From positions 186,001 to 250,000 of the IMG/VR virus record IMGVR_UViG_3300042558_003926: a stretch of DNA of 64,000 bases. The stretch is one strand, 5' to 3'. The notes under the pieces were generated by a model that saw only the letters and a program-made list of their open reading frames with translations, did no database searches and had not been told where the DNA came from. The translations under genes were made by a program, and so were the position numbers. This document shows positions 22,595 through 55,205 of the stretch, one piece after another. The stretch's first letter is position 1. Each line of letters opens with the position of its first letter. Origin of the DNA: a virus.

Positions 22595-22777
22595 ATGGAA
22601 AGGGATAGAGATCCGGTCGGTATTTTTGTAGTTTCACTACTAGTTTCATTGCTTTATATTTTCGGAACGGTTAGCAAAAAAGAGAAAGATGCTATGAACT
22701 TAAAAAATGATAGCATCAGGAAAGAAAATAAGCGTAAAGAAAAATATATACAGCATGAAGAATATACTAGACTTTAA
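22595..22777 (+). CDS. Small membrane protein, 60 aa
   Basis: ATG at 22595; an in-frame TTG six bases earlier is less likely. A hydrophobic helix (VGIFVVSLLVSLLYIFGTV) follows a charged N-terminus, then a basic helical tail (KKEKDAMNLKNDSIRKENKRK). The size and layout recall Rz-type or holin-accessory proteins. It overlaps the start of the SleB-like hydrolase gene, which supports a lysis link, but this is inference. Confidence 0.55.
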   Translation: MERDRDPVGIFVVSLLVSLLYIFGTVSKKEKDAMNLKNDSIRKENKRKEKYIQHEEYTRL

Positions 22778-23441
22778 TCAGTTCAGTGAGATCAACGAGG
22801 CATATAAGCCATCCAGTGGGATGGATTATGTGAAGAATATGATAAAAGGTGGTGTAAAATCAGCAGCAGATTTTCTTAAAAAACCTAAGGTTGTCAAAAA
22901 AACCCCCATCGATAATTCGGAATATTGGACTCTAATAACTATAATGGCATGTGAGAATTTCTCAGATCAAAAACAAGGTATGTCCGATACAGCCCAATCA
23001 ATCTACAATAGATTAGCAGTTCCAAATAAACCTTACGGAAAAACGATTAAGGAGATAATTCTTGCTAAGGGACAATATGAGCCGGTTAGTGTAGGTAAAA
23101 AAAGAGGAGCAGATTGGAATAACATAAACTCAAAAGAGAAGGCTATAACGGTATACATGAAAACCAAAAAGCTAGACAGAAATAAAGCCACCGCTGCCAT
23201 TAATAACGCTATATTGGCTCAAAAAGATCCAAAATTGGCTAAGGAAGCTGGAAAGCACGTTCAATCCAGAACGGAGTTCTTAGCTGATAAACCAAAAAGC
23301 GGAGGAGCAGCTAAACCAGTAGAGAGACAAAGTCCTAAGACTAACAATGCCTTTTTCTGGAACTATGCAGGAAAAACTAGATTCTATTCTAAGAATGATT
23401 TAGCTCCTAAGCCTAAACCAGGAAACGTTAACGTAGCTTAA
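22755..23441 (+). CDS. Tagged SleB-like cell-wall hydrolase
   Basis: Start taken at the ATG at 22755 because it gives MKNILDFNQFSEINEA, an exact fit to the shared tag. About 228 residues. The middle has the Hydrolase_2 / SleB pattern: TIMACENFSDQKQGMSDTAQ with the catalytic Glu, then YNRLAVPNKPYG, then ILAKGQYEPV. SleB-type enzymes are lytic transglycosylases or amidases that open peptidoglycan. A tagged, virion-carried hydrolase would help DNA entry. It converges with the next gene with a four-base overlap. Confidence 0.75.
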   Translation: MKNILDFNQFSEINEAYKPSSGMDYVKNMIKGGVKSAADFLKKPKVVKKTPIDNSEYWTLITIMACENFSDQKQGMSDTAQSIYNRLAVPNKPYGKTIKEIILAKGQYEPVSVGKKRGADWNNINSKEKAITVYMKTKKLDRNKATAAINNAILAQKDPKLAKEAGKHVQSRTEFLADKPKSGGAAKPVERQSPKTNNAFFWNYAGKTRFYSKNDLAPKPKPGNVNVA

Positions 23442-24016
23442 TCCTTTTTATCTTTCATGTTTTTTCTAGCTCTTTTATAAAGAGCCTTATCTGACATTTC
23501 AGTAGTTCTCCCGCCGGTTACAAATGAGTTCACTCGTGCAAATGCCCACTGTTGTGGGGTAGTTCCTGGAACATGTCCAGTTTTCCAAGCTGCATACCCT
23601 CTGCTCCAGACTTGTTTCAATATACCGAGCGGGAATCCAGTCTTATCAGATTTTTTCTTCAAAGCTTTATAGACTGGTGAATTCTTACCCATTTTTTCAT
23701 TTAGAATCTCTTCGGTTAAAGAATCATCCTCCAAAACTATCTCCTCAAATACATTATCTGGAATATTAGAAAAATCTTCATATGATAATACCATACCTTC
23801 CGTATCATCGTCTTCCTCGAACATCTCCTTATACTTCTTGGTGTATTTACTAGGTTTAGTTTCTACTGGTTTACCCTTACCTGCCTTTCTACTTTTATAA
23901 TCAGCATCCCAAGGACCATAAGCTGAAGAATCATTATCCGATTTATCCGCATGTTTCTTGATTTCCCTCTTCATAACTTCGGGATTAGTTTTTAAGTATT
24001 TCTTTGGAAGTTTCAT
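23438..24016 (-). CDS. DUF5824-like protein
   Basis: 192 residues. The C-half matches the DUF5824 pattern: KTGFPLGILKQVWSRGYAAWKTGHVPG, then TPQQWAFARVNSFVTGG (given here in pieces). The N-half is charged and disordered, with an EEDDDTEG acidic stretch. DUF5824 proteins are common in large phages and are probably virion-associated; function unknown. It ends two bases before the GDPD gene on the same strand. Confidence 0.75.
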   Translation of the reverse strand: MKLPKKYLKTNPEVMKREIKKHADKSDNDSSAYGPWDADYKSRKAGKGKPVETKPSKYTKKYKEMFEEDDDTEGMVLSYEDFSNIPDNVFEEIVLEDDSLTEEILNEKMGKNSPVYKALKKKSDKTGFPLGILKQVWSRGYAAWKTGHVPGTTPQQWAFARVNSFVTGGRTTEMSDKALYKRARKNMKDKKD

Positions 24017-24017
24017 A

Positions 24018-25106
24018 TTATTTAAGATATCCTTTTAGTTGACTTGGTCGATTAGTCATGATTAGACTAGGTTTTATGTTTTTAACTATTTTTTCCCATG
24101 CTGTCTTAGAATCTCCTCTGTAAGAAGCACCGTTTGTATTTTTGGTTCCTCCTACCGCAACTACCATGGGATAAACACCCTTAGTTCTCAGAGAATCCGA
24201 CATATATCCATTAAGTATATAGGAGTCAGAGTCACTGAACTGATATTCGAAAAACCCCGGGGTTGTTTTTGATACTATATCATCAGCCGAGATCTTAGAT
24301 TTTATTTTCCCCACATTAGTGGTGGGGAGAATGGGCATCCATTTGATACCCATTGTCTTAACTATGGATGGAGGATAGTATGATTGACCCTTTGCTACTA
24401 TTTGATTTTCTATCCCTCTAAGCATTCCAATTTTATTGATCACTGACAATTCTTTAGCGTCGCATTTATCTAATTGTAGCATTGTTTTGGATGAGTATTT
24501 TTTTATAAGATTCACAACATCCTGAAGGGAACATATTTTCTGGGATGGGTCGGAATTATAAGAAATCACTTTAACCTGGCTCCAATTCAGATTCTGTATC
24601 TTTCCTTTACCATTAGTTTTAGAATCAAGACGGGAGTCATGGAAAAGAACAGGAACACCATCGGCTGTTATTTGTATATCTATTTCTATCATGTCTATCT
24701 TGGCCTTGATATTCTCCTCGATGTTCTTTAGACAATTCTCTGCCTTGGATGCACCGGGACCATCCCATTTACCAGCATGTGAGCAGATCATAGTTGATGT
24801 GTTCGTGGAAGGAATAAAGTCCTGTTTATTACCTGGTGTTAAATTAGTAGCCGTATTTGTAGGTGTATTTGTAGGTGTGTTGGAATAAGTTGTTTGCTGG
24901 GCTACTTTTTTTCTAGCCTGTGGATGTCTAGAATCAAGAATGTCCGTTGCCGTCTGGTTACCTGATAAGGACTTCCAGTCCTTTATATCTTTACCCTTGG
25001 TCATCCATACGTTATTAATCACTTTGTATTGATACGGATCTCCTGGGGTTTTATAGATCTTCTCAGATTCTAAAATAAACTCGTTAAATTCTAAGATTAT
25101 TCTCAT
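24018..25106 (-). CDS. Tagged glycerophosphodiester phosphodiesterase (GDPD-like)
   Basis: 362 residues. The N-terminus MRIILEFNEFILESE is a clear tag. A Thr/Asn-rich linker (about 80-100) leads to a GDPD TIM-barrel domain: ICSHAGKWDGPG with the first catalytic His, then AENCLKNI, IEIDIQITADGVPVLFHDSRLD (Glu, Asp, His; pieces), then MLQLDKCD. GDPD enzymes split glycerophosphodiesters, including teichoic-acid or lipid-derived ones. Packaged in a virion it might modify the host envelope during entry; this is inference. Confidence 0.8.
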   Translation of the reverse strand: MRIILEFNEFILESEKIYKTPGDPYQYKVINNVWMTKGKDIKDWKSLSGNQTATDILDSRHPQARKKVAQQTTYSNTPTNTPTNTATNLTPGNKQDFIPSTNTSTMICSHAGKWDGPGASKAENCLKNIEENIKAKIDMIEIDIQITADGVPVLFHDSRLDSKTNGKGKIQNLNWSQVKVISYNSDPSQKICSLQDVVNLIKKYSSKTMLQLDKCDAKELSVINKIGMLRGIENQIVAKGQSYYPPSIVKTMGIKWMPILPTTNVGKIKSKISADDIVSKTTPGFFEYQFSDSDSYILNGYMSDSLRTKGVYPMVVAVGGTKNTNGASYRGDSKTAWEKIVKNIKPSLIMTNRPSQLKGYLK

Positions 25107-25110
25107 AGTT

Positions 25111-25118
25111 TATATATC
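25111..25118 (-). promoter_or_regulatory. Late-type box GATATATA, four bases from ATG
   Basis: The minus strand reads GATATATA, four bases, ATG (25106). The close spacing would give an almost leaderless transcript if this is a promoter. Confidence 0.5.
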
Positions 25119-28922: not shown

Positions 28923-29330
28923 ATGAGGAAAGGTAAACAAAACAAGCCTAAGGAGACGGAGGTTACGGATCTAGAAGTAGCCAAAAAAATGCTAAAAATA
29001 CACCAGAGCGCACAAGACAGAAAATTAGAATTCGATCTTTCATTCGAATCAGTAAAGAAACTTTTAGCTTACCAGACATGTTATTACACTGGTAAAAAAT
29101 TCGAGGAAGAGGGATTACTCGCAAGAAGCTTTGATAGAATAGATTCAGCAAAGGGTTACATCGAGGGAAATGTTGTAGCTTGTACCGTTGATATAAACGG
29201 GAAGAAAAGCAATTTAAGTTTGGATGAAATAGAGTGTCTCTACAATAAACTAATAGTAAAAATGTGTCCAAAAAAGGATCCGGATTTAATAAGTGTAGAG
29301 ATAACCGATATTAAGGATGTTGAATCCTAG
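28923..29330 (+). CDS. HNH-type endonuclease
   Basis: 135 residues. CYYTGKKF, then SFDRIDSAKGYIEGNVVAC and INGKKSNLS fit the HNH subfamily whose motif reads L-D-R-I-D-S-x-K-G-Y-x-x-G-N-V, with Asp in place of the first His. The N-terminus is basic. It may be a homing-type or DNA-processing nuclease. It stands alone, with no intein or intron signal nearby. Confidence 0.75.
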   Translation: MRKGKQNKPKETEVTDLEVAKKMLKIHQSAQDRKLEFDLSFESVKKLLAYQTCYYTGKKFEEEGLLARSFDRIDSAKGYIEGNVVACTVDINGKKSNLSLDEIECLYNKLIVKMCPKKDPDLISVEITDIKDVES

Positions 29331-29337
29331 ATATATA
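29330..29337 (+). promoter_or_regulatory. Late-type box GATATATA, five bases from ATG
   Basis: GATATATA overlaps the end of the HNH gene; five bases later comes the ATG of a tagged gene (29343). Confidence 0.5.
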
Positions 29338-29342
29338 CCTAC

Positions 29343-30179
29343 ATGAACCTAAAACACATAAAGAAATACTCCATAAACGAATCCGAAGATGCTTTGAAAT
29401 CCGGTGGAATAACTTTAACCGATGACCAGATTGACTATCTAAACAGCGAAGGAGTAGATCTTGTGGTGAAGGTAAATAAAAATCTTAAGAAAAACGGTGG
29501 GCTTCCATGCATATCAAATAAAAAATGGGGGCAAAACTCCATATCTATTTCAATAGGTTTAAAAGAATTAGGTATATCAGAAAATATAGATAAGCTTGAA
29601 AAATATTCGGATAGCGATATAATCCCAAAATATCCTATCTCCGAAAATAATATGCAATTCCAATATTTTTTAGATCCTTCTCTAGCTTCGGGTAGTTATA
29701 AATTGAATAATTATAACTTCTCCCAGTACGGAGCTCAAACTATAAGGGTAGACATTAATTTTGAAACATTCGAAGATATCACAAGGATTATTAACGAATC
29801 GATTACTGAGATCTTTCAGGACTTCAAAAAGGTTAGAATTTTTGTCAATTGGAATTTGAAAAGACTCCCATCGATATCTTCGCATATAAAAAAAGAGGTG
29901 AAAGAGATTTACTGTAATCTGCTTGATCAATTTTTGGAAAATGGTAGGATAGAAGGAGACGACATAGACGAAAGCTTACATGCTATTCTCCTCGGTGATG
30001 CTTTAGAAAAAAATCAAGACGAGATCGAAAAATTTAATTCTCTACCCGAAGAAGCGAGAAAATCCCTTCTCTCCGGGTGGAGCCAAATACTTAAAAGCGA
30101 CGATCTAACGATATCTCTTAGAAAAATAGAAGCTCTTAAGAAATACATTAGCGTAAAAAAATCCTGGGATTTTATTTAG
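29343..30179 (+). CDS. Tagged hypothetical protein, 278 aa
   Basis: The N-terminus MNLKHIKKYSINESED is a tag variant ending in N-E-S. The remainder is mixed alpha/beta, with DITRIINESITEIFQDFKKVRIF and a helical C-terminus. No known family. Confidence 0.65.
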   Translation: MNLKHIKKYSINESEDALKSGGITLTDDQIDYLNSEGVDLVVKVNKNLKKNGGLPCISNKKWGQNSISISIGLKELGISENIDKLEKYSDSDIIPKYPISENNMQFQYFLDPSLASGSYKLNNYNFSQYGAQTIRVDINFETFEDITRIINESITEIFQDFKKVRIFVNWNLKRLPSISSHIKKEVKEIYCNLLDQFLENGRIEGDDIDESLHAILLGDALEKNQDEIEKFNSLPEEARKSLLSGWSQILKSDDLTISLRKIEALKKYISVKKSWDFI

Positions 30180-30223: not shown

Positions 30224-30478
30224 ATGGAACATATAGAACTGTACGAGAATTTCAGTAAGCCTGAAAAAAAAGAGTTTACTGATGCAGAGATCCAGTACTA
30301 CCAGAAGCTCTGGGACTGGTTACCCCAGAAGTATAGATTCAATCCTTTTTTCTCTAAGTTATGGAATCAGGTTAAGGATAAAAAGTACCTAACGAAAAAA
30401 CAATGGACCCAGCTAGAATATCTTCTTAAGAATGGCAAATCGCAATACGAAGCAGGAATTCTACCGTCTAATTATTGA
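30224..30478 (+). CDS. Tagged small protein, 84 aa
   Basis: MEHIELYENFSKPE matches the tag. The rest is aromatic and helical (YYQKLWDWLPQKYRFNPFF). It is followed three bases later by another tagged gene. Function unknown. Confidence 0.65.
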   Translation: MEHIELYENFSKPEKKEFTDAEIQYYQKLWDWLPQKYRFNPFFSKLWNQVKDKKYLTKKQWTQLEYLLKNGKSQYEAGILPSNY

Positions 30479-30481: not shown

Positions 30482-30865
30482 ATGAAAAATATAGAACTAT
30501 ACGAATCTTTTGAGGAAGAAGATCCAAAGGAACTTTTAAATGATTTTATAAAAGAGATATGGCCGGATATAGAAAAGTACCTGGAGTCAGCGGGATTGGA
30601 GAGTGATTACGTTTGGATTGACGAGGAAGAATTCGCAATTGAATATTGGCCAACCAGCATGGATGGATCTGTACCTAACAGAATTTCCTATATAGTAGAC
30701 GATTTAAAAACCATTCTGGAGAAAGAAATGGGTACAGGTATATCGTGGAGATTTGCACCAAACGGGAACTGTCAAAGACTTATCTTTGTTCTGGATTCTC
30801 CTATAGAAACTGGGTCTGTCACGGACAAAATACTTAAGGTTAAAAAGGCTTTAAAGTTCACATAA
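30482..30865 (+). CDS. Tagged small protein, 127 aa
   Basis: MKNIELYESFEEED matches the tag closely. An acidic alpha/beta body follows (ESDYVWIDEEEFAIEYWP). Paired with the preceding tagged gene. Confidence 0.65.
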   Translation: MKNIELYESFEEEDPKELLNDFIKEIWPDIEKYLESAGLESDYVWIDEEEFAIEYWPTSMDGSVPNRISYIVDDLKTILEKEMGTGISWRFAPNGNCQRLIFVLDSPIETGSVTDKILKVKKALKFT

Positions 30866-31478: not shown

Positions 31479-31716
31479 ATACGTTATAAAAAACCAGGAG
31501 ACCAATAGAACATTGACATATGGATGGGATCACGCTCTTGGGTACTTCTATGACATTACCGATTCGTCTAAAAATGAAGATGAGCCTGGATATCTGATAG
31601 AGGAAAAATGTTATTTTCTGAATCGGCTATCGCGAAACGATTTTGCTGAGGTACTTTTAGAATGGAAGGCTCCGGAAAAACATCTAACTTCTCTGAGCTT
31701 AGATCTGCCTTTTTAG
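31471..31716 (+). CDS. Hypothetical protein, 81 aa
   Basis: Aromatic-rich soluble protein (TYGWDHALGYFYDI). Last gene of the SLOG run; its end overlaps the convergent tagged gene by four bases. Function unknown. Confidence 0.6.
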   Translation: MSRYVIKNQETNRTLTYGWDHALGYFYDITDSSKNEDEPGYLIEEKCYFLNRLSRNDFAEVLLEWKAPEKHLTSLSLDLPF

Positions 31717-32264
31717 GAGTATGTGATTCTCCCAGCAGCCCTGCTACCAAGTTCTTTTAAAACACTATCTACGAAATCTTCCCAATTTACATAGGATACC
31801 TCCGGGGTTCCATTTATTTCTGCAGTTACCCTAAATTCGTTATAGGTAAATTTTCCTCTTTCTACGGTCCAGCTTATAGTGCAATCCCCTGTGTATATCG
31901 ATTCAACAAAATCTCTCCCGTCATCATTGTTGCCTATCGCATCATATATCGCTTTTTCTATCTCGCTCGCCGTAAATAGAGGGGTTTCTTCAGAAGGATT
32001 TATATAGGCGAAAAGGTCATTCGATATCTGTTCATTGTCCATCTCTATATAGTAGTCGCTTGGATGATCGCTTAGTTCCGCAGTGATTTTTAGTTCTGTA
32101 TCATCCTCCGAATAATCTAATTCCGGACTATGATCATCCATGTTTATTATGAAATATGATTCAGCTTGACTCTTCAGAGACTCTAATCCTTCTTTAATGT
32201 CCATGATATTGAAATATTCATCATCGGACTCGTTAAGTTTTTTAAAACTTCTTATGTGCCTCAC
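31713..32264 (-). CDS. Tagged acidic protein, 183 aa
   Basis: GTG start at 32264, giving MRHIRSFKKLNESDD, a tag ending in N-E-S. The rest is acidic and strand-rich (SYVNWEDFVDSVLKEL near the end). A GATATATA box lies 16 bases upstream. No family recognised. Confidence 0.65.
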   Translation of the reverse strand: MRHIRSFKKLNESDDEYFNIMDIKEGLESLKSQAESYFIINMDDHSPELDYSEDDTELKITAELSDHPSDYYIEMDNEQISNDLFAYINPSEETPLFTASEIEKAIYDAIGNNDDGRDFVESIYTGDCTISWTVERGKFTYNEFRVTAEINGTPEVSYVNWEDFVDSVLKELGSRAAGRITYS

Positions 32265-33776: not shown

Positions 33777-33959
33777 ATGATACTTAAATTCCAAGAATTT
33801 ATCACCGAGTCCAAAAAAGAGGACAAAAAAATCACAAAATCCAAATCGAAGAAGTCCACAAATTGCAATGAATGTGGACAGAAAATTAGAGAGTGTTCCT
33901 GTCAGGATTATGGTGGAGGGTATCTAGGGCCAGAGATGCCATCAAATTTACTTTACTAA
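33777..33959 (+). CDS. Tagged small Cys-rich protein, 60 aa
   Basis: MILKFQEFITESKKE is the tag form closest to the T4 internal-protein signal. A Lys/Ser-rich link follows, then CNECG and CSC, likely a small zinc site, then a Gly-rich end. It is little more than a tag plus a metal-binding knot, which supports the idea that the tag is a separable unit. Confidence 0.65.
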   Translation: MILKFQEFITESKKEDKKITKSKSKKSTNCNECGQKIRECSCQDYGGGYLGPEMPSNLLY

Positions 33960-36517: not shown

Positions 36518-36525
36518 GATATATA
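36518..36525 (+). promoter_or_regulatory. Late-type box GATATATA, five bases from ATG
   Basis: Immediately after the terminator, GATATATA then GATTC then the ATG of a tagged gene at 36531. Confidence 0.55.
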
Positions 36526-36530: not shown

Positions 36531-37016
36531 ATGAGGTATATCCAGCTATTCGAATCATACACAGCAACTAATGCCGACTATAGTGCTATGGTATTCAACG
36601 TTCCTAATTTCAAGGAGGATTTTGAAAAATTAGCTGAGGCATTTCTCAGAGATTTGGGAAAGGATTATGATCTTAGAAAGGGAGAGAAATTCGATCCAAA
36701 GATAGGGAACTGTGCATGGTACTCCAAGAAGTTCTTCGAGTGGTGTGAGAATCAGAGACTGCCGATTAAACTTATCTACTTCGACGAAACAAAGAAGAAC
36801 AAGGAGGCTCATATAGCTCCTTATTTGGAAGGATGGGTTATAGATTTTACATATAAGCAATTCTCCGATAACTCCAAACAATCTTTTAGAGTTGGTAAGC
36901 CAGAGGATTATGAAAAGTTAGGGTATGTTCTTAGTCCAGAAAACATCTACGAGGAATTCCCTAATTGGATAGAGACGATATATAGTTTGAAAAAAAAGGA
37001 AGATGAGGTACATTAA
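36531..37016 (+). CDS. Tagged papain-like (Cys/His/Asp) protein
   Basis: Start at the ATG at 36531 (MRYIQLFESYTA, a tag). 161 residues. IGNCAWYSKKFFEWC, then EAHIAPYLEGWVIDFTYKQF give Cys61, His94 and Asp105 in papain order with the Q-F end seen in papain-fold enzymes. It may be a peptidase, deamidase or transglutaminase-like enzyme. First of three tagged genes in a row with overlapping ends. Confidence 0.65.
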   Translation: MRYIQLFESYTATNADYSAMVFNVPNFKEDFEKLAEAFLRDLGKDYDLRKGEKFDPKIGNCAWYSKKFFEWCENQRLPIKLIYFDETKKNKEAHIAPYLEGWVIDFTYKQFSDNSKQSFRVGKPEDYEKLGYVLSPENIYEEFPNWIETIYSLKKKEDEVH

Positions 37017-37821
37017 GCTATTTGAATATTTCTCTCCTGGAGATGGCAATAAGCTAAAGCATTTTATATTGGATGGTGCATCTTCCGCAGGTAAAAGCTC
37101 AGCTTTGGTTAATCTAGATTCATCTTGGTGTGTATTAGCGGTAGACTCTTTTTACAATGTTATGTTTGAAGAATTGGGAATGGAAGATTTTGGTAATAGG
37201 GGAAAGCCAACTATTTCAGAGATCTATCCAGGATGTCCATATAAGTATACTAGTCCAGAGGATTATCCTAATTACGATAAGGCTGCTAGATGGTATATGG
37301 CACAAGAAGCTATGTATGGTAAGATTTTTGAAACAGGTCTAAAAGATGCTTCGGGAAATCTATTCGGTAAGCCACACGATAAGAATAAGGTGATATATGA
37401 TGATGTTGAGGGGAGGGTGATCGATATGTTTAATAAGGCGGATAAACCAAAATGGTTACTTATTCATGCTCCCATAGATCACACTATTAAGAATGTTCAG
37501 AGAAGGGGAGACAGACCTTTGGATGGTGTTCTTAAGAATTCCTACTGTTTTAAGTATTATGCAAAACCTATTCGAGGTGGTGTTGACCCAGATAAGTCAT
37601 GGACTGCCGATGAGATAAGATCTTTACTACCGAAAGAAGAATGGGTAGAAGTATTTCTAACGGATCTCGGTATATCGGATGAGAATAGAGAATATTGGAT
37701 TTACCCTAAACCACAGCCTCAGGGTGAATATGACGTGATTATTAACACAAGAGACAGTAAAGGAAATCAAAAGTCGATAGAGCAAATTGCAAAAGAGGCT
37801 AAAATAAAATTTGAACAGTGA
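37003..37821 (+). CDS. Tagged P-loop kinase-like protein
   Basis: MRYIKLFEYFSPGDG is the tag, identical over ten residues to that of the next gene. The body has Walker A LDGASSAGKSS and VLAVDSFYNVMFEELG, resembling chloramphenicol-phosphotransferase-type kinases, then LLIHAPIDHTIKNVQRRGDRP. Substrate unknown. Overlaps both neighbours (start 14 bases inside the previous gene). Confidence 0.7.
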   Translation: MRYIKLFEYFSPGDGNKLKHFILDGASSAGKSSALVNLDSSWCVLAVDSFYNVMFEELGMEDFGNRGKPTISEIYPGCPYKYTSPEDYPNYDKAARWYMAQEAMYGKIFETGLKDASGNLFGKPHDKNKVIYDDVEGRVIDMFNKADKPKWLLIHAPIDHTIKNVQRRGDRPLDGVLKNSYCFKYYAKPIRGGVDPDKSWTADEIRSLLPKEEWVEVFLTDLGISDENREYWIYPKPQPQGEYDVIINTRDSKGNQKSIEQIAKEAKIKFEQ

Positions 37822-38633
37822 GATACATTAAATTATTTGAATATTTTCAAAAAACCAGACAGACATCGGATATCACTCTAGCGTGGTCTACGAGAAGACT
37901 AAATCCTCTGGACATTGGGGTATGGAAAGGAAAGGGCATAGAACCCAATAGAAAAGTCTATAAGAAAGGAACGATGGACGGAATACCGTATTCTAGTAGA
38001 ACCATGTTTACATTCCCGAATGACGGAACCCTTTTAGAAAATATCAAATACATCTCAGGAGGAATAACAAGAAAAGATGTTGCTGAATTGGTTGATTATG
38101 GGATTTCTTTGCTCCCTAGTAAAATGGAGCTGGAGAATTATGATGTTGTTCTTATACCGGATAGCAGATCTAGGTTATTGGTTGAAATGGTTGATGCTCT
38201 TTTAGACATAGCTCCATCATATTCATCACATAAAAAGGAATGGAAGCCAAATGTAATAAGCAGAGCTTTTAGTAAAAGAAACTGTAACGAGGTAGAGTGG
38301 GATATGGATAAATTGAATAGGGTAAACTCTCAGGACACGAGAAATCAAGTACTGAGGATTATAGAAAAAGTAAGGGGAAGAACTGAGCCCTTTAGATTAT
38401 CCGATCATTTACAATATCCGCCACATAGAAAATTTGTAGCCAGATTCATGGATATAAGCCCGATAGCTCAAGAGGATGTCAGAGGTAAAAGAGTCTTAAT
38501 CGTTGATGACTTTGTTACAGACGGAACAACTAAAAGACAGATGAGGGATCTAGTTTTACCCTTTGGTCCTAGAGAGGTTACTAACTTGGCTCTATTTAAT
38601 ATCAAGGGAGCGAGAGACTCCGACGAGGCTTAG
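37818..38633 (+). CDS. Tagged phosphoribosyltransferase-like protein
   Basis: GTG start (GTGA overlap) giving MRYIKLFEYFQKT. 271 residues. RVLIVDDFVTDGTTKRQM is the PRPP-binding loop of type I phosphoribosyltransferases, and VVLIPDSRSRLLVEMVDAL looks like its partner strand. It could salvage bases or modify a substrate by ribosyl transfer. Together with the kinase it might process a host nucleotide or signal. Confidence 0.72.
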   Translation: MRYIKLFEYFQKTRQTSDITLAWSTRRLNPLDIGVWKGKGIEPNRKVYKKGTMDGIPYSSRTMFTFPNDGTLLENIKYISGGITRKDVAELVDYGISLLPSKMELENYDVVLIPDSRSRLLVEMVDALLDIAPSYSSHKKEWKPNVISRAFSKRNCNEVEWDMDKLNRVNSQDTRNQVLRIIEKVRGRTEPFRLSDHLQYPPHRKFVARFMDISPIAQEDVRGKRVLIVDDFVTDGTTKRQMRDLVLPFGPREVTNLALFNIKGARDSDEA

Positions 38634-39922: not shown

Positions 39923-41017
39923 CTAGATTTGTTTTAATGCGAATCCTAAATCCGAAAAATCCCTCATACCTGTTCTTTTCAATATACCATCCTTAATATC
40001 TGGATGATTTTTAAGGTACTGTAGGTCCAACGGATTTTTTTGGAAATGACTATCTGGCAAAGCCGTTGCAATAAATTCCTTAAATTTATCATCATCCTTA
40101 CTAAATGCCATATAATGCGAAATTTGATAGTGATGGTCTATATATGAGCCAGGACCCTTATCCATTATCATAGGAAGTACCTCTATATCGAAAGGAGAAG
40201 CGTAAAAGTAATCACACTGGAAAGCAACTATTTTTCTTTCCCTATCGAAATATCCAGCTAGAGAATTTAATGCAGGTGATTCTGACATGGTTCTTCTTTC
40301 ATGGTTTACCGATAAAATTCTAAGAGGTTCCGAAACCTCTATAGTAGGAAATGTCATTAGATCTTTGATTCCTCCCAGAGAGTATAGTAGCATTTCTCCG
40401 CCAACTTTTTCGGGGAGAAATTCCAATGACTCCAGATCATTCAACCGAATGATCACAAATTTACCCTTCACTGTACCAAAATTTATAGATGCTAGTATAT
40501 CTGGATCAGATGTTTGAGGATCCTGTGAGAATGTTCCCGAAATATCCACTGCTTGACTTACTCTATTCCATTTCCATTTAGATTTAGTCCCCTTGTTTAT
40601 CTCGATAATCTGATTAGCCGTCAAAGGACCAGTATTTTCATTTGGCTCATTCCTTTTTATTTCTCCGGAAAATCTATCAAGTAGATTAAGAAGCATATCA
40701 TACAGGGTGAAATCACTCTGGTATCTTTTAATAAATCCAGAGGTTGCCGCTTTATCTCTTATATAACCGGATTTCTGTAAAACGATTCCGTCTGGGTACA
40801 TATAAGAAATTGATGGATTATTGGTTTTTAACATGATGGTAGAGTTCTTGGCTTGAAGTGGGGTTGTGACTTCTACAAATCCGATATCCTCTAAAGACTT
40901 CCATATTCCCATTTCTTTCCAGTTAGAAGGCCAATGTTCTTTTTCTATATCAGATAGATTTGAATTCTCGTAGATATAACCAGAATTAAACTCCTTGAAC
41001 CCCTTTATATTTTTCAT
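39923..41017 (-). CDS. Tagged hypothetical protein, 364 aa
   Basis: MKNIKGFKEFNSGYIYENS is the tag with a second E-N-S end. The body has alpha/beta regions (KFVIIRLNDLESLEFLPEK) and a C-terminal HYQISHYMAFSKDD. No enzyme motif recognised. Late group. Confidence 0.65.
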   Translation of the reverse strand: MKNIKGFKEFNSGYIYENSNLSDIEKEHWPSNWKEMGIWKSLEDIGFVEVTTPLQAKNSTIMLKTNNPSISYMYPDGIVLQKSGYIRDKAATSGFIKRYQSDFTLYDMLLNLLDRFSGEIKRNEPNENTGPLTANQIIEINKGTKSKWKWNRVSQAVDISGTFSQDPQTSDPDILASINFGTVKGKFVIIRLNDLESLEFLPEKVGGEMLLYSLGGIKDLMTFPTIEVSEPLRILSVNHERRTMSESPALNSLAGYFDRERKIVAFQCDYFYASPFDIEVLPMIMDKGPGSYIDHHYQISHYMAFSKDDDKFKEFIATALPDSHFQKNPLDLQYLKNHPDIKDGILKRTGMRDFSDLGFALKQI

Positions 41018-45316: not shown

Positions 45317-45769
45317 TTATGCTACTTTAGTAAGTGTTGCATCATAGTCTCCCTCGACTCCTTTAATCTCTCCGGTCCCACTAAAAGCTATACTTGATGC
45401 TTTTGTCTTAACCTTGGATGCAAGAGTGTTTAGAGTTGCATCGTCCAATTTAAATACCTTATCTGTGTTGTCCTTAACGTAGATGTCTCCGGTCTCCTTG
45501 CTTTTCCAAACCACTTCAACAGCTATAGGTCCTTCATACCAAGTTACAAGGAGTTTTTTAACTTTGACATTTACCTTATAATAAAGTTCTGTGTTGTTAT
45601 AGATGAAAACTATTCTACCGGTCAAATCCTTTGGCTTACCAGTTTTGGGATCCTTACCCCCGTGTGTTCTGGCAGAAACTATCTCTACCCCCTTCCACTC
45701 TACTGATTCTAAAATTGGTTGATTTAAAGATTCGTTTACGAAATCTTGATATCCCTTAATGTTTTCCAT
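45317..45769 (-). CDS. Tagged hypothetical protein, 150 aa
   Basis: MENIKGYQDFVNESLNQ is the tag with N-E-S at the expected cleavage point, followed by a second I-L-E-S. The body is beta-rich (GRIVFIYNNTELYYKVNVKVKKLLV, pieces). Function unknown. Confidence 0.65.
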   Translation of the reverse strand: MENIKGYQDFVNESLNQPILESVEWKGVEIVSARTHGGKDPKTGKPKDLTGRIVFIYNNTELYYKVNVKVKKLLVTWYEGPIAVEVVWKSKETGDIYVKDNTDKVFKLDDATLNTLASKVKTKASSIAFSGTGEIKGVEGDYDATLTKVA

Positions 45770-47899: not shown

Positions 47900-48361
47900 T
47901 TATCCTATGTAAGTTTTGATGAATTCATCAACACCCATTAATTCTGTGTGACCGTGATGGTCGATACAAAGCAATTTACCTTCAACTAGGTCAAATAAAC
48001 GAGCTTCTTCGTAAACTTGGAAAGAATCACTACCGTTGTTCTCATTACCAAGTCTACCATCTTTAGCTATGTAGTAAGCATAATCCTCTGTGTTAGTGCT
48101 ATTCGGCACCGCCTCAAATTCTCCATTCTCGTCATGAATTACATAACCCATTCCTGTTACATCGACATCGAAGATTTTTAATTCGTCTTCAGTTCCAGGA
48201 AATTCGGCAGCAAGTCTGTCAATAGCACTTTGCAATTTCTCTTTCTGAACTTCGTCGATGATTCCTACTGCTGCATAAGCATCTCCCTGAAAGCAAGTAG
48301 CATATCTTCTACCGGATCTTTGTGTGGGACCGAAGTTCTCAAATAATCTAAGGTGTTTCAT
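47900..48361 (-). CDS. Tagged hypothetical protein, 153 aa
   Basis: MKHLRLFENFGPTQ is the tag. An acidic alpha/beta body (AYYIAKDGRLGNENNGSDSF) follows. It has a GATATATA box 21 bases upstream and its own terminator, so it is a stand-alone late unit. Confidence 0.65.
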   Translation of the reverse strand: MKHLRLFENFGPTQRSGRRYATCFQGDAYAAVGIIDEVQKEKLQSAIDRLAAEFPGTEDELKIFDVDVTGMGYVIHDENGEFEAVPNSTNTEDYAYYIAKDGRLGNENNGSDSFQVYEEARLFDLVEGKLLCIDHHGHTELMGVDEFIKTYIG

Positions 48362-48423: not shown

Positions 48424-49098
48424 TTATATCATACCCTTAAATCCATGGTAAGCCCTTATCAATTCCAGTCTCTTTATTTCTTCCGGCCCCACCCACTCGA
48501 ACTCTGGTTTGTAGAGTAGCATCTGATCCTCTAACGGGATCTCGCTCCAAAGTGACTCTACAGCCTCCTGATAGCTCATCTCATCTTCCATTTGGTAGAA
48601 TATACTCCTGAGTGTATCCTCAGAAACCGGATTATTTACACATTTGAACATCCCTCCGATTTTCTGAGGGGCACCTTCGAGAGAGGTGAGCTGGTTGTTG
48701 CTACAATTGAAATCGCTACCGATTTCCTGTGGTGCTCCCTCCAGTGAGGTAAGCTGGTTGTTGTTACAAAAGAAATCAAGGCCAACTCTCTTTGGTGATC
48801 CCACCAGCGAGGTGAGCTGATTGTCGTCACAATAGAAACCCTCAGCCTCCTGTGGTGCTCCCTCCAGTGAGGTGAGACGGTTGTCCTCGCATGAAAAATA
48901 TGCTCTCACTACACCAAATCTAACTCCTTTAAAATCTGTCAGATCCTGTCCAGTGCAGCTAAAGCTCCCATCCACATCAACAAGTCCGGTATGAGGATTA
49001 ATAGTCCATTTATCAGAGCACTCATCAAGCCACTCGATCTGCTCCGGGGTAAGCTCTACCGCACTCTCAAACATCTTATATGTCTTTAGATTCTTCAT
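48424..49098 (-). CDS. Tagged leucine-rich-repeat paralogue A (4 repeats)
   Basis: 224 residues. Tag MKNLKTYKMFESA, then a conserved ~60-residue head (ELTPEQIEWLDECSDKW to DLTDFKGVRFG), four ~21-residue repeats of the form N-N-Q-L-T-S-L-E-G-A-P-Q-x-V-G-x-D-F-x-C, and a C-terminal cap (LLYKPEFEWVGPEE, then AYHGFKGMI). The repeats resemble LPX-type leucine-rich repeats with one Cys per turn. Most diverged copy of the array and its last gene. Confidence 0.82.
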   Translation of the reverse strand: MKNLKTYKMFESAVELTPEQIEWLDECSDKWTINPHTGLVDVDGSFSCTGQDLTDFKGVRFGVVRAYFSCEDNRLTSLEGAPQEAEGFYCDDNQLTSLVGSPKRVGLDFFCNNNQLTSLEGAPQEIGSDFNCSNNQLTSLEGAPQKIGGMFKCVNNPVSEDTLRSIFYQMEDEMSYQEAVESLWSEIPLEDQMLLYKPEFEWVGPEEIKRLELIRAYHGFKGMI

Positions 49099-49100
49099 TC

Positions 49101-50156
49101 CTATATCATACCCTTAAATCCTTGGTAAGCCTTTAACGCTTCCAGCTTCCTTCCCTCCTCTGGACTCACCCACTCGAACTCTGGTCTGTACAGCAGAGCC
49201 TGATCCTCTATAGGGATCTCATTCCAGAGTGATTCCATAGCCTGGATGTAACTCTTCCCTTTCTCCATGGGGTATAATATTCTCCTGAGTGTCTCTTCAG
49301 AAACCGGATTGCTCTCGGAATAGAAAATCCCATTAATCTCCCGTGGTGCCCCATCCAGTGAGGTGAGCTGGTTGTTTTCGCAGAAGAAACCCCCTCTGAC
49401 CCGCTGTGGTGCTCCCTCCAGTGAGGTGAGCTGGTTGTTCCTGCAAATGAAATCCTCTCCAACCTCCTGTGGTGCTCCCTCTAGTGTGGTGAGCTGATTG
49501 TGGTCACAACTGAACCAAAATCCAACCTTCTGTGGTGCTCCCACCAGTGAGGTGAGCTGGTTGTTGCTACAATTGAAAGCCTGTCCAACACTCTGCGGTG
49601 CTCCCTCCAGAGAGGTGAGCTGGTTGTTGGTACACTTGAAACTCCCTCTGACCCGCTGTGGTGCTCCCACCAGTGATGTGAGCCGGTTGTTCTCACAATA
49701 GAAATACCCAGCAATCTCCTGTGGTGCTCCCACCAGTGATGTGAGCCGGTTGTTCTGGCAATAGAAATACCCACCAACATCCTGTGGTGCTCCCTCCAGT
49801 GAGGTGAGCTGGTTGTTGCTACAATTGAAATCCTGCCCAACACTCTGTGGTGCTCCCACCAGTGAGGTGAGCTGGTTGTCGTGGCAATAGAAATCCCCTC
49901 CAACATCCTGTGGTGCTCCCTCCAGTGAGGTGAGCTGATTGTTCCGGCAAATGAAATCCTCACTGACCACTCCAAACCTAACGTCTTTAAAATCTGTCAG
50001 ATCCTGTTCAGAGCAATCGAAATCCCCATCCACATCAACCAGTCCGGTTTGTGGATTAATAGTCCATTCATCAGTGCACTTGTCCAACCACTCGATCTGC
50101 TCTGGTGTAAGCTCTACCGCACTCTCAAACATCTTATATGTCTTTAGATTCTTCAT
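49101..50156 (-). CDS. Tagged leucine-rich-repeat paralogue B (10 repeats)
   Basis: 351 residues with the same tag, head and cap as paralogue A but ten repeats, the most in the array. Repeat pairs differ by whole 63-base units with very similar DNA, so copy number probably changes by recombination. Its start lies directly after the stop of the next upstream paralogue, in a run sharing the junction ATGATATAA-ATG. Confidence 0.82.
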   Translation of the reverse strand: MKNLKTYKMFESAVELTPEQIEWLDKCTDEWTINPQTGLVDVDGDFDCSEQDLTDFKDVRFGVVSEDFICRNNQLTSLEGAPQDVGGDFYCHDNQLTSLVGAPQSVGQDFNCSNNQLTSLEGAPQDVGGYFYCQNNRLTSLVGAPQEIAGYFYCENNRLTSLVGAPQRVRGSFKCTNNQLTSLEGAPQSVGQAFNCSNNQLTSLVGAPQKVGFWFSCDHNQLTTLEGAPQEVGEDFICRNNQLTSLEGAPQRVRGGFFCENNQLTSLDGAPREINGIFYSESNPVSEETLRRILYPMEKGKSYIQAMESLWNEIPIEDQALLYRPEFEWVSPEEGRKLEALKAYQGFKGMI

Positions 50157-50157
50157 T

Positions 50158-50841
50158 TTATATCATACCTTTAAATCCTTGGTAAGCTCTTAACGCTTCC
50201 AGCTTCCTTCTCTCCTCTGGACTCACCCACTCGAACTCTGGTCTGTACAACAGAGTCTGATCTTCTAACGGAATCTTGCTCCAGAGTGATTCCACAGCCT
50301 GCATGTGACTCTCCCCTTTCTTCATGAGGGAGAATATTCTCTTGAGTGTTTCATTAGAAACTGGGTTGCCGTAGCAATAGAAAATCAATCTCACCCGCTG
50401 TGGTGCTCCCACTAGAGAAGTGAGCTGGTTGTTGTCACATCTAAAATCCCCTTCAACCTCCCGTGGTGCACCCTCCAGTGAGGTGAGCTGATTGTTGTTA
50501 CAATAGAAATCCCATCCAACCTTCTGTGGTGCTCCCTCCAGTGTGGTGAGCTGGTTGTCACTACAACTGAAACCCCCACCAACCCGCTGTGGTGCTCCCT
50601 CCAGTGTGGTGAGCTGGTTGCCGTAGCAATAGAAATACCCACTGACCACTCCAAACCTAACGTCTTTAAAATCTGGCAGATCCATACGAGAGCAGCCAAA
50701 ATCCCCATCCACATCAACCAGTCCGGTTTGTGGATTGAGTGTCCAGGTACCATCAATGCACTCGTCAAGCCACTCGATCTGCTCTGGTGTAAGTTCTCCT
50801 ACACTCTCAAACAGTTGGCGATATGTCTTTAGATTCTTCAT
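50158..50841 (-). CDS. Tagged leucine-rich-repeat paralogue C (4 repeats)
   Basis: Start placed at the second of two ATG codons so that it matches its paralogues (MKNLKTYRQLFESVG); the first is at 50844. Four repeats, then the cap ALRAYQGFKGMI. Two Asn/Ser-containing turns (YGNQLTTLEGAP) show variant residues. Confidence 0.8.
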   Translation of the reverse strand: MKNLKTYRQLFESVGELTPEQIEWLDECIDGTWTLNPQTGLVDVDGDFGCSRMDLPDFKDVRFGVVSGYFYCYGNQLTTLEGAPQRVGGGFSCSDNQLTTLEGAPQKVGWDFYCNNNQLTSLEGAPREVEGDFRCDNNQLTSLVGAPQRVRLIFYCYGNPVSNETLKRIFSLMKKGESHMQAVESLWSKIPLEDQTLLYRPEFEWVSPEERRKLEALRAYQGFKGMI

Positions 50842-50848
50842 CATAATA

Positions 50849-51661
50849 CTATATCATACCTTTAAATCCTTGGTAAGCTCTTAACGCTTCCAGTTTTCTT
50901 ACCTCCTCTGGACTCACCCACTCGAACTCTGGTCTGTACAACAGAGCCTGATCCTCTACTGGAATCTCGTTCCAGAGTGTCTCCACAGCCTGAATGTAAC
51001 TCTCCCCTTTCTTCATGAGGGAGAATATGCTCTTAAGAGTCTCCACAGAAACTGGGTTGTTCTCACAATAGAAATAATCCCGTCCGATCTCCAGTGTTGC
51101 TCCCTCCAATGAGGTGAGCTGGTTGTCCCCACAATAGAAATACCCATCCACCTTCTGTGGTGCTCCCTCCAGTGTGGTGAGCTGATTGTTCTCACAATTG
51201 AACCTCCCTCCAACCCGCTGTGGTGCTCCCTTCAGTGAGGTGATCTGGTTGCCGTTACACTCGAAATACCCTCCAACCTTCTGTGGTGCTCCCTCCAGTG
51301 TGGTGAGCTGATTGTTGTTACAAAAGAAACCACTTCTGACCCGCTGTGGTGCTCCCACCAGTGAGGTGAGCTGGTTGTTGCTACAACTGAAATGCTCTCC
51401 AACCTCCTGTGGCGATCCCTCCAATGAGGTGAGCTGGTTGTTCCTACAATTGAAACTCCCACTCACCACTCCAAACTTAACGCCTTTAAAATCTGTCAGG
51501 TCCTGTCTAAAGCAATCGAAGTCTCCTTTCACATCAACCAGTCCTGTTCGTGGATTGATCTTCCAGGTACCATCAGTGAACTTGTCCAGCCACTCGATCT
51601 GCTCTGGTGTGAGCTCTTGTGTGTTCTCAAACATTTGGCGATATGTCTTTAGATTCTTCAT
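50849..51661 (-). CDS. Tagged leucine-rich-repeat paralogue D (6 repeats)
   Basis: 270 residues: tag MKNLKTYRQMFENTQ (N-T in place of the usual S-V), common head, six repeats, cap. The last repeat is one residue longer (EIGRDYFYC) than the rest. Confidence 0.8.
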   Translation of the reverse strand: MKNLKTYRQMFENTQELTPEQIEWLDKFTDGTWKINPRTGLVDVKGDFDCFRQDLTDFKGVKFGVVSGSFNCRNNQLTSLEGSPQEVGEHFSCSNNQLTSLVGAPQRVRSGFFCNNNQLTTLEGAPQKVGGYFECNGNQITSLKGAPQRVGGRFNCENNQLTTLEGAPQKVDGYFYCGDNQLTSLEGATLEIGRDYFYCENNPVSVETLKSIFSLMKKGESYIQAVETLWNEIPVEDQALLYRPEFEWVSPEEVRKLEALRAYQGFKGMI

Positions 51662-52408
51662 TTATATCATACCTTTAAATCCTTGGTAAGCCTGGAGAGC
51701 TTCCAGCTTTCTTCTCTCCTCTGGACTCACCCACTCGAACTCTGGTCTGTACAGCAGAGCCTGATCCCCTAATGGAATCTCACCCCAGAGAGACTCCACA
51801 GCCTGAAGATAGCTCTCACCCTTCGTCATGGTGGAGAAGATGCTCTTGAGTGTCCCTTTGGAAACTGGGTTGCCCTCACAATTGAAATGCCGTCCGATCT
51901 CCCGTGGTGCTCCCTCCAGTGAGGTGAGCTGGTTGTTACTACAATAGAAATACCTCCCAACCTTCTGTGGTGCTCCCTCCAGTGTGGTGAGCTGATTTCC
52001 CTCACAAATGAAATCACCCTCAACCTTCTGTGGTGCCCCCACCAGTGAGGTGAGCTGGTTGTTGTCACACCTGAAACGCTCTCCTACCTCCTGTGGTGCC
52101 CCCACCAGTGAGGTGAGCTGGTTGTTGTTACAATAGAAACCCTCACCAACCTTCTGTGGTGCTCCCTCCAGTGAGGTGAGCTGGTTGTAGTCACAACCGA
52201 AATCCTTACTCACCACTCCAAACCTAATCCCTTTGAAATCCGTCAGATCATGTTCAGAGCAATCGAAGTCTCCTTTCACATCAACCAGTCCTGTTCGTGG
52301 ATTGATCTTCCAGGTACCATCAATGCACTCGTCAAGCCACTCGATCTGCTCTGGTGTGAGCTCTCCCACACTCTCAAACAGTTGGCTATATGTCTTTAGA
52401 TTCTTCAT
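51662..52408 (-). CDS. Tagged leucine-rich-repeat paralogue E (5 repeats)
   Basis: 248 residues: tag MKNLKTYSQLFESVG, head, five repeats, cap with LQAYQGFKGMI. Its start directly abuts the stop of the upstream paralogue. Confidence 0.8.
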   Translation of the reverse strand: MKNLKTYSQLFESVGELTPEQIEWLDECIDGTWKINPRTGLVDVKGDFDCSEHDLTDFKGIRFGVVSKDFGCDYNQLTSLEGAPQKVGEGFYCNNNQLTSLVGAPQEVGERFRCDNNQLTSLVGAPQKVEGDFICEGNQLTTLEGAPQKVGRYFYCSNNQLTSLEGAPREIGRHFNCEGNPVSKGTLKSIFSTMTKGESYLQAVESLWGEIPLGDQALLYRPEFEWVSPEERRKLEALQAYQGFKGMI

Positions 52409-53281
52409 TTATATCATGCCTTTAAATCCAGCGTAAGCCTTAATGACATCCAGCTTCTTACCAAACTCTGGACTCACCCACTCGAACTCTGGTCTGTATA
52501 ACAGAGCCTGATCATCTAATGGAATCTCGTTCCAGAGTGTCTCCACAGCCTGCAGGTAGCTATTCCCTTCCTTCGTGAGGGAGAATATGCTCTTGAGTGT
52601 CTCTTCAGAAACGGGGTTTTTCTCACAATAGAAACCCCCTCCAACCTTTTGTGGTGCTCCCTCCAGAGAGGTAAGTTGGTTTCTATCGCAATTGAAACTT
52701 CCACCGACCTCCTGTGGTGCTCCCTCCAGTGAGGTGAGGTTGTTGCCCTCACAAAGGAAACGCTCTCCTACCTCCTGTGGTGCCCCCTCCAGCGAGGTGA
52801 GCTGGTTGTTGTTACAACTGAAACCTCTTCCGACCCGCTGTGGTGCTCCCTCCAGTGAGGTGAGCTGGTTGTCGCTGCAATAGAAATCATGTCCAACCCG
52901 CTGAGGTGCTCCCTCTAGGGAGATGAGCTGGTTGTCCTCACAATTGAAATTCGCTCCGACTTCCTGAGGTGCTCCCACCAGCGAGGTGAGCTGGTTGTAC
53001 CTACAATAGAAATCCTCTCCAACCTTCTGTGGTGCTCCCTCTAGGGAGATGAGCTGGTTGTTGCTGCAATAGAAATACCCACTGACCACTCCAAACCTAA
53101 TCCCTTTGAAATCTGTCAGGTCCTGTTCAGAGCAATTGAAATCCCCATCCACATCAACAAGTCCGGTTTGTGGATTGATCTTCCAGGTACCATCAGTGCA
53201 CTTGTCCAACCACTCGATCTGCTCTGGTGTAAGCTCTCCCACACTCTCAAACAGTTGGCGATACGTCTTCAGATTTTTCAT
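52409..53281 (-). CDS. Tagged leucine-rich-repeat paralogue F (7 repeats)
   Basis: 290 residues: tag MKNLKTYRQLFESVG, head, seven repeats, cap with VIKAYAGFKGMI. First gene of the array, five bases after a GATATATA box, which probably drives all six. Confidence 0.82.
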   Translation of the reverse strand: MKNLKTYRQLFESVGELTPEQIEWLDKCTDGTWKINPQTGLVDVDGDFNCSEQDLTDFKGIRFGVVSGYFYCSNNQLISLEGAPQKVGEDFYCRYNQLTSLVGAPQEVGANFNCEDNQLISLEGAPQRVGHDFYCSDNQLTSLEGAPQRVGRGFSCNNNQLTSLEGAPQEVGERFLCEGNNLTSLEGAPQEVGGSFNCDRNQLTSLEGAPQKVGGGFYCEKNPVSEETLKSIFSLTKEGNSYLQAVETLWNEIPLDDQALLYRPEFEWVSPEFGKKLDVIKAYAGFKGMI

Positions 53282-53286
53282 CCCAC

Positions 53287-53294
53287 TATATATC
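53287..53294 (-). promoter_or_regulatory. Late-type box GATATATA for the repeat-protein array
   Basis: The minus strand reads GAGATATATAG, five bases before the ATG at 53281. Confidence 0.55.
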
Positions 53295-53843: not shown

Positions 53844-54048
53844 GAGATCCCAGAACTGATCCCAAACTAACCCCCAACAACATAGTATGTTAGTAAGATA
53901 GTATGCACAGCCATGTTCATCTGAGTGGGAAGCACGTGGAGGCACTCATATAGGTACTCGTATGCGAAAACTTGGCCCTCCCGGCAGCCCCTCTCCAGGG
54001 CCGAGCAACCACCCAGGGTGCGAACAAGGGTGTTCTCGGATAGCCCCG

Positions 54049-54159
54049 TTAGCCCGGGTTAACCACCCCCGCTTAGCCCGGGTTAACCCAGCCTCCCACT
54101 AACCCGGGGTAATTCCTGGTAAGCAATGGTAAAAACTGGAATTTTAGCCCGGGTTAACT
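54049..54159. repeat. Iteron-like repeats TTAGCCCGGGTTAAC
   Basis: Exact TTAGCCCGGGTTAAC at 54049, 54073 and 54144, plus a variant (TAACCCGGGGTAA) near 54100. The core CCCGGG is palindromic. Spacing is irregular. Confidence 0.65.
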
Positions 54160-54355
54160 AGGTTAACTCGGCCCGCCCCGAATCCCTAGGATTTCTCGCC
54201 CCGATTCCAGCCTCAGACACCGCGGTTATCTCTTAGGTATCTCGCCTCGCCTCACTCTACCTCTCTCTATAGGATCAGGAGACGGAATCTACTCATGTCT
54301 ACTCTATCTATAGGGAGAAGGATAAGGATAATACATAACTATTTGGGGCGGGTTT

Positions 54356-54370
54356 CCCACGGTGTTACCC
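54356..54370 (+). repeat. Dispersed 15-base element, copy 1
   Basis: CCCACGGTGTTACCC; identical to the copy at 55479. It lies 25 bases before the late-type box of the tagged gene at 54411. Confidence 0.6.
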
Positions 54371-54395
54371 CTCAGAAAACCCCCCGAAGAATTTG

Positions 54396-54403
54396 GATAT
54401 ATA
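54396..54403 (+). promoter_or_regulatory. Late-type box GATATATA, seven bases from ATG
   Basis: GATATATA then GATCACT then the ATG at 54411. Confidence 0.55.
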
Positions 54404-54410
54404 GATCACT

Positions 54411-55205
54411 ATGAAACATGTTAAAATATTTGAAGAGTATATCCCAGGAGGCAGAGCCTCTGGCAAGAGCCTAAAGGATCTCGCCAAGATCCACGGTGTA
54501 GGAATCAAGAGCCTGGAGAAGCAGCTGAAGGTTGGCGTAGCCGTTGAGATGGAACACACCAACAGTGAGGCCAAGGCCGAGGAGATAGCTATGGATCACC
54601 TAGCAGAAAACCCACGGTATTACACTCGGCTTATCCGGAAGGGATTCGTGGATGAACCAAAGGCTCTGAAGATCTATAAGGAACTCTATGAGGGAGACTG
54701 GTTTGATAATCTAAGTTACCACCCGGCAAACCAACCAGATGGACCTGATCCAACAAGGGAGATCGAATACACCCCGGCCCAACAGAAGTTTACCACTATG
54801 TCATTCCTAGGTGATAGCAGCATTGGCTTTACTCTGCTGCATGGCAAGGACTCCGTGGGAGGTGGAGCTTGGGTGCTTAACATCGATGAGGTTCCGGATG
54901 ACTATCAGCTGATCACTGTCTATGGAGATGATGAAGAGAATGAGACGGAGATTGATGAGGACACTTGCATCAACTACGCTACTGATCTCTGGGATGCTAG
55001 AGATAGAGATGTTGAGAATGTAGGAGAAGGCATGGAAGGCTGGGAAGATGGTAAGTTGCTATGTAAGCTAGATGCTGAACTGGCAGAGGATTTGATTGGC
55101 ACTATGGAGTTCGTGATGAGAAGAGGTAATTACGGTCCTGGTTCTAATATCAAGAAAAAAGTCTCTGGTGCTGTCTATGAGCTAAGCAAACTATTTGAGC
55201 TGTGA
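54411..55205 (+). CDS. Tagged DUF5661-like protein
   Basis: 264 residues. MKHVKIFEEYIPGG is the tag. KQLKVGVAVEMEHTNSEAKAEEIAMDHLAENPRYYTRLI (pieces) matches the DUF5661 pattern of E-H-T, I-A-x-D-H-L and Y-Y-T-x-L, with conserved His and Glu residues that could bind a metal. An acidic C-terminal domain follows. The DUF5661 function is not known to me. Confidence 0.8.
   Translation: MKHVKIFEEYIPGGRASGKSLKDLAKIHGVGIKSLEKQLKVGVAVEMEHTNSEAKAEEIAMDHLAENPRYYTRLIRKGFVDEPKALKIYKELYEGDWFDNLSYHPANQPDGPDPTREIEYTPAQQKFTTMSFLGDSSIGFTLLHGKDSVGGGAWVLNIDEVPDDYQLITVYGDDEENETEIDEDTCINYATDLWDARDRDVENVGEGMEGWEDGKLLCKLDAELAEDLIGTMEFVMRRGNYGPGSNIKKKVSGAVYELSKLFEL

Follow-up and report, generated by a model that had tools for sequence, protein, structure and literature searches.

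A short N-terminal tag resembling the T4 capsid-targeting sequence is shared by unrelated proteins across the genome of a large Bacteroidota-type bacteriophage

Results

Tagged genes and a common upstream element

The 64,000-nucleotide stretch of DNA considered here (the window) comprises bases 186001-250000 of the 289,651-bp virus record IMGVR_UViG_3300042558_003926, which is the genome of a large bacteriophage of a Bacteroidota-type phage lineage, and it holds 26 genes, representing 20 body families, whose products begin with variants of one short tag that resembles the capsid-targeting sequence (CTS) of phage T4. Because the window covers only part of the genome, the remainder of the record was analysed as well. 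Gene prediction relied on a simple codon-usage approach, 344 genes were scored for the N-terminal tag, and the results were compared with those for two relatives, G003 and G004, whose major capsid proteins (MCPs) are 83% and 82% identical to that of this phage, and for LR756500, a 462-kb huge phage; a search for close DNA relatives among known phages found none. An initial annotation of the window had listed 25 tagged starts, "about two dozen", and on translation all of them proved to be valid ATG or GTG codons followed by tag-like N-termini (the weakest at 10920, 11226 and 63168), but the true extent is about 70 genes genome-wide.

In what follows, window genes are named by their start positions, and a slash marks the predicted cut. 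Towards the left end lie a 471-aa protein beginning MIKSFHDRLNE/AS (9505..10920, minus strand; G003 ortholog MNLKSFTQLVDE/AS) and a 508-aa protein with a weak tag score, MKSLSFRTFFE/A (11226..12752, plus strand). Further on, a Hydrolase_2 (cell-wall hydrolase-like) body carries the tag MKNILDFNQFSEINE/A (22755..23441, plus strand; G003 ortholog MINVLEFNQFNELNE) and a GDPD phosphodiesterase body the tag MRIILEFNEFILE/S (24018..25106, minus strand), and these are followed on the plus strand by bodies without assigned family tagged MNLKHIKKYSINE/S (29343..30179), MEHIELYENF (30224..30478) and MKNIELYE/SF (30482..30865). A GTG-initiated gene tagged MRHIRSFKKLNE/S (31713..32264, minus strand) precedes one for a 60-aa protein with a Cys cluster, MILKFQEFITE/S (33777..33959, plus strand). 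Next come three plus-strand genes, tagged MRYIQLFE/SY (36531..37016), MRYIKLFEYF on a P-loop kinase-like body with a weak CPT match (37003..37821), and again MRYIKLFEYF on a phosphoribosyltransferase (PRTase) domain, with a GTG start (37818..38633). The minus strand then carries MENIVHFRKMFE/S (38767..39222), MKYINLFE/AF (39230..39886), MKNIKGFKEFNSGYIYE/N (39923..41017), whose body groups with the leucine-rich repeat (LRR) family by BLASTP, MENIKGYQDFVNE/S (45317..45769), which is the nearest of all to the T4 CTS, and MKHLRLFE/NF (47900..48361). A DUF5661 body tagged MKHVKIFE/EY (54411..55205, plus strand) and a CHAP-domain hydrolase tagged MVEKRIKNFCDFVNE/A (62335..63168, minus strand) lie towards the right end.

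Between these, six tandem LRR paralogs, all tagged MKNLKTYxxLFE/S, occupy 48424..53281 on the minus strand (48424-49098, 49101-50156, 50158-50841, 50849-51661, 51662-52408 and 52409-53281). That the tagged bodies all differ, as first proposed, holds for the 20 families in the window but not for these six genes, which were counted once because they are tandem paralogs. The GC content of window positions 48000-54500, which contain the cluster, is 0.47-0.485, against about 0.37 elsewhere, and this difference suggests a recent acquisition of the LRR cluster.

Some of the tagged genes are closely preceded by a DNA element, GATATATA, which lies at 25111..25118 (minus strand), 4 nt upstream of the 25106 start; at 29330..29337 (plus), 36518..36525 (plus) and 53287..53294 (minus), in each case 5 nt upstream, of the starts at 29343, 36531 and 53281, respectively; and at 54396..54403 (plus), 7 nt upstream of the 54411 start. 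The same element is found upstream of the genes for the tail sheath, head closure, the protease and the endolysin, and it is enriched upstream of tagged genes in this genome (p=7e-6), in G003 (5e-11) and in G004 (7e-15). Its distance to the start codon in this genome is mainly 4-7 or 15-25 nt, and when genes were selected only by a GATATATA end 2-8 nt before the start codon, most of those recovered were tagged. The element is late-promoter-like; tagged genes may share late expression with the virion genes, and, given the spacing of 2-8 nt, the transcript would begin at about the ATG.

Statistical support for the tag

The shared start had been described as M-K-x-I-K-x-F-E-x-F-x-x-E-S, which is right in kind, although the broader form M-[KRE]-x-[ILV]-x-x-[FY]-x-x-[FLMY]-x(0-6)-[LIVMF]-x-E-[SAN] fits better. 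With a leave-one-out position-specific scoring matrix (PSSM) of residues 2-10, 39 of the 344 genes reached at least 8 bits, compared with 0 of 1308 internal Met positions. The genome-wide profile search proposed in the initial annotation bore the tag out: a gapped profile gave at least 8 bits in 58 genes of this phage, 59 of G003 and 69 of G004, versus 4 of 6,284 internal decoys. A chance or composition artefact behind the tag is ruled out by the internal-Met decoys. Model-free residue counts by position also make F10, F7, I4, K5 and N3 stand out. Once manual cases are added, the total reaches about 70 tagged genes, falling into 57 body families (BLASTP, E<=1e-3); they cluster at 208-241 kb and 265-289 kb of the genome, and others are dispersed over the head module and the 112-180 kb region. 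Judged from sequence, a CTS-like address system is thus real in this huge-phage lineage, genome-wide and unusually large.

The tag behaves as a module

In the tagged adenylate kinase of this phage the tag is an extension of about 20 residues: the alignment with solved adenylate kinases begins only at query residue 21-24, and in the predicted structure residues 1-19 are of low confidence while the remainder folds. When the GDPD protein is compared with its G003 ortholog, the tag proves invariant at M1, I4, L5, F7, F10, I11 and E13 alone, and residues 4 and 7 are invariant in the orthologs of both GDPD and adenylate kinase. Phage matches to the GDPD protein span the enzyme part alone (residues 94-362), and a search of viral contigs by short sequence patterns returned no GDPD relatives. 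The tag is also swapped or lost across bodies that are 74-84% identical: the product of 37003 and its G003 ortholog have bodies 75% identical and N-termini that are wholly different yet tag-like, and the 142255 protein has an 84%-identical ortholog without a tag. The cyanophage relatives of the DUF5661 protein have N-termini without the tag, and in two cyanophages the gene adjoins terminase genes.

Only three genes of LR756500 are reciprocal-best orthologs of tagged genes in this phage, yet 35-41 of its genes are tagged, in the dialect MKYIKxYExF..E; as in this genome, they include LRR (six proteins), ATP-grasp and DUF5661 proteins. The tag stays at background in Lak-B1 (with TAG read as Gln), PTm1, PAU and MaF61, which are isolate or metagenome-assembled relatives, and it is therefore not universal among phages with this capsid protein.

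Head genes and the predicted cut site

The initial annotation had remarked that no head gene was in view, which holds for the window but fails for the genome, where a head module at 40-52 kb includes a T4-type (S77) prohead protease (PF03420; PHROG 207, 9.5e-39) and a gp23-like MCP, to which 173 relatives were identified. The protease and a scaffold-like half form a single open reading frame (ORF) of 676 aa (genome 43277-45307), the C-terminal half of which is built of some 16 Y[ST]xYLAEN repeats in tandem, and a cut (YLAE/N) is predicted in every repeat. The N-terminus of the MCP reads HYHSLNE/SAGAYN in this genome, G003 and G004, and HYHELYE/NAYN in LR756500, with the cut predicted in each case; we take the former to lie where gp23 of T4 is cut. 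The predicted MCP site, LNE/S, resembles the ends of the tags. Copies of [LIVMF][NA]E[SANG] number 17 in the protease/scaffold ORF, 4 in 24941, 2 in the MCP and 2 in 49484. Directly after the MCP lie the tagged genes 47161, 48335 and 49218, at least the first two of which encode coiled-coil, charged proteins; from their sequences, the products of 47161 and 48335 look core- or scaffold-like.

A family of short proteins (genome 119164-119634, with relatives in G003 and G004) contains a stretch of about 46 residues like residues 50-95 of the MCP, which lie just past its predicted cut site, and the copy in this genome ends in the tag-like NLISYMDFI; it is possibly a mimic of the capsid N-arm.

The motif [LIVMF]NE[SANGT] is present in 19 of 68 tagged N-termini, in 0 of 264 untagged ones and in 26 of 2310 body windows, a comparison that is weakened by the tagged set having been picked with a profile overlapping the cut site. 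For this reason a held-out test was performed, in which genes were chosen by a PSSM of residues 2-10 trained on seeds from this window and [LIVMF]xE was then sought from about residue 11 on. It was found in 30/33 tagged vs 129/361 untagged genes of G003 (p=4e-10), in 32/42 vs 178/485 of G004 (p=7e-7), and in 29/37 vs 209/577 of LR756500 (p=5e-7); the corresponding figures for this genome are 28/40 and 104/288 (p=5e-5). Thus, as in a T4-type CTS, the tag ends in a predicted prohead-protease site, [LI]-x-E, also in three genomes outside the training set.

Functions of tagged and untagged proteins

Families recognised among the tagged proteins are CHAP, SLT, cell-wall hydrolases, GDPD, adenylate kinase, ClpP, RimK-like ATP-grasp, PRTase, LRR and DUF5661, and PADLOC gave just four family matches among them. 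Untagged proteins include DNA polymerase B, ribonucleotide reductase, thymidylate synthase, helicases, clamp loader, ligase, topoisomerase and sigma factor, together with the virion and packaging families terminase, portal, sheath and baseplate. The tag is accordingly not found to the same extent in early non-virion genes; an equal spread is an outcome that would have counted against packaging, although adenylate kinase and ClpP are arguable either way.

Comparison with known propeptides

As a control, the T4 genome yielded MKTYQEFIAE/ASVV and MKTYQEFIAE/ARVG, in frames that we take, by sequence and position, to be IPIII and IPII. A 76-aa reading frame at T4 114210 likewise begins in a CTS-like manner, MLLEFKQFLYEAS. 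The T4 sequence MKT-YQEFIAE/A aligns directly with MENIKG-YQDFVNE/S of this phage and MKYIKE-YEEFLLE/A of LR756500. Like the gp21-cleaved CTS of IPI, IPII and IPIII (and the propeptide of Alt), the tag is a short N-terminal propeptide-like sequence, of about 10-20 residues, common to unrelated bodies, and it shares with the CTS the core [FY]xxF[LIV]xE/[SA]. In IPIII, residues 4 and 7 determine targeting and residues 8 and 10 processing, and in T4 an Asp in place of the P1 Glu prevents processing while leaving targeting intact (PMC9026906). Here I/L/V4 and F/Y7 are enriched in the tags, and residues 4 and 7 rank among the most constrained positions. A further likeness to T4 is the pairing of an S77 protease with a gp23-like capsid protein predicted to have the same cut motif. 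The T4 reading, initially an analogy, is in part supported by the protease, the MCP site LNE/S, positions 4 and 7, the untagged state of known replication and tail proteins and the retention in orthologs of exactly the residues for targeting and cleavage, and it now rests on more than analogy.

The differences from T4 are that about 70 genes are tagged rather than a handful, that the tag of this phage in most cases includes one more hydrophobic position on its N-terminal side (I4 in addition to F7 and F10), that the recognised cargo families differ by Pfam matches and include full enzymes, and that a late-promoter-like element stands near the tag in a subset of genes, all in a Bacteroidota-type phage lineage. 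Apart from T4, a literature search turned up only propeptides of the SPN3US type, a result that does not in itself prove absence elsewhere. In the Salmonella phage SPN3US, which is phiKZ-like, many internal head proteins are targeted and then processed by the prohead protease, but its propeptides are mostly longer than 100 residues, only that of gp45 being about 20, and the parts of that report available to us describe no common short tag over dozens of genes (PMC5694885).

Discussion

We consider it likely that the tag is a propeptide that directs proteins to the capsid in the manner of the T4 CTS, and that its cargo is packaged and processed. The propeptide would comprise the N-terminal 11-16 residues or so; late in infection its hydrophobic and aromatic face (I/L4, F/Y7 and F10) would dock the cargo on the prohead core, and the S77 prohead protease would cut after the Glu of [LIVMF]-x-E/[SAN], the motif common to the MCP and to the scaffold-like repeats of the protease. 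The freed cargo would remain in the head and probably be delivered together with the DNA, and we lean towards the view that most of it is injected. Docking, cleavage, residence in the virion and injection are put forward here from sequence comparisons. A broader proposal, on which our opinion is evenly divided, is that any gene can become virion cargo through a short cassette of late promoter and N-terminal address, so that in these huge Bacteroidota-type phages a fifth of the genes would form a swappable kit of injected enzymes and counter-defence proteins, each lineage with its own dialect.

Several observations weigh against packaging. In LR756500 the tag is present without the GATATATA association, and in Lak-B1, PTm1 and PAU homologues of the protease and the capsid protein occur without the tag, so that homologous head machinery does not alone imply it. 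The tags of 37003 and 37818 have no convincing cut site beyond LFE/Y, and that of 118510 has none. Adenylate kinase, ClpP and the RimK-like ligase look metabolic and need not be virion cargo; the gene calls are heuristic; and for phages that carry the tag the literature search found no virion proteomics.

The most serious competing explanation, to which we give a clearly smaller though real chance, accepts targeting to the prohead and processing, but holds that the tagged proteins act there as core, scaffold or structural parts and are mostly not injected effectors. The position of 47161, 48335 and 49218 beside the MCP favours it, at least two of their products being coiled-coil and charged like gp22, gp67 and gp68 of T4; the recognised tagged bodies, however, are mostly normal enzymes or hydrolases unlike scaffold proteins (adenylate kinase, GDPD, ATP-grasp ligase, CHAP, SLT and PRTase), and the cargo sets of the lineages are almost completely different. 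Short amphipathic N-termini serve membrane targeting in other systems, and as part of the cargo seems metabolic (adenylate kinase, ClpP and RimK-like proteins), the tag might instead address another site in the cell, such as the membrane, a replication compartment or a host or phage ClpP, its resemblance to the CTS being coincidental. We judge this improbable, given that the downstream Glu site matches the motif of the MCP and protease repeats and recurs in three genomes outside training, that recognisable DNA-metabolism genes are untagged, and that the tag positions invariant between orthologs are precisely I4, F7, F10, P3 and P1, plus L5.

Two further explanations were considered. Because genes with a close GATATATA are mostly tagged, upstream DNA and tag co-occur, and the shared start could be conceived of as a 5' coding element (promoter and first codons) for late expression or translation instead of a protein signal; this is very unlikely, since the conserved residues use varied codons (TTT, TTC, TAT and TAC at position 7), the amino-acid pattern continues through residues 10-16, and LR756500 has the tag but lacks the DNA element. 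Least credible of all is that the tagged proteins are paralogs that inherited their N-termini by duplication. That is an apt description of the LRR-type genes, where BLASTP groups ten tagged proteins including the six in tandem, but the 57 body families have no detectable similarity at E<=1e-3, Pfam indicates unrelated folds for adenylate kinase, GDPD, CHAP, SLT and LRR, and tags are lost or replaced on near-identical bodies.

If the tag is a packaging signal, a simple sequence rule predicts which proteins are packaged, and probably delivered first, among the huge-phage genes that lack known function. The approximately 70 genes, mostly of no known function, would then be a testable list of early host-takeover and anti-defence proteins, and the tag a natural means of directing proteins into capsids of very large size. 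In T4, IPI and IPIII counter host defences (PMC9026906, PMC9391042). What appears new here is the GATATATA element before virion and tagged genes, and the LR756500 dialect on an almost non-orthologous cargo.

The phage also resembles the Bacteroidetes lake phages with bS21 in being large and having genes for an MCP and a prohead scaffold-protease; in the parts available to us, that study suggests that bS21 might be packaged and describes no N-terminal tag (Chen et al. 2022, PMC9723584). The relative G003 encodes bS21 (C1:40696-40851), and no match to it was found in this genome or in G004; membership of the bS21 phage group was accordingly rejected for this phage and retained for G003. Finally, the genome carries two adjacent portal-protein paralogs, at 29170-30843 and 30866-32476, both assigned to PHROG 213.

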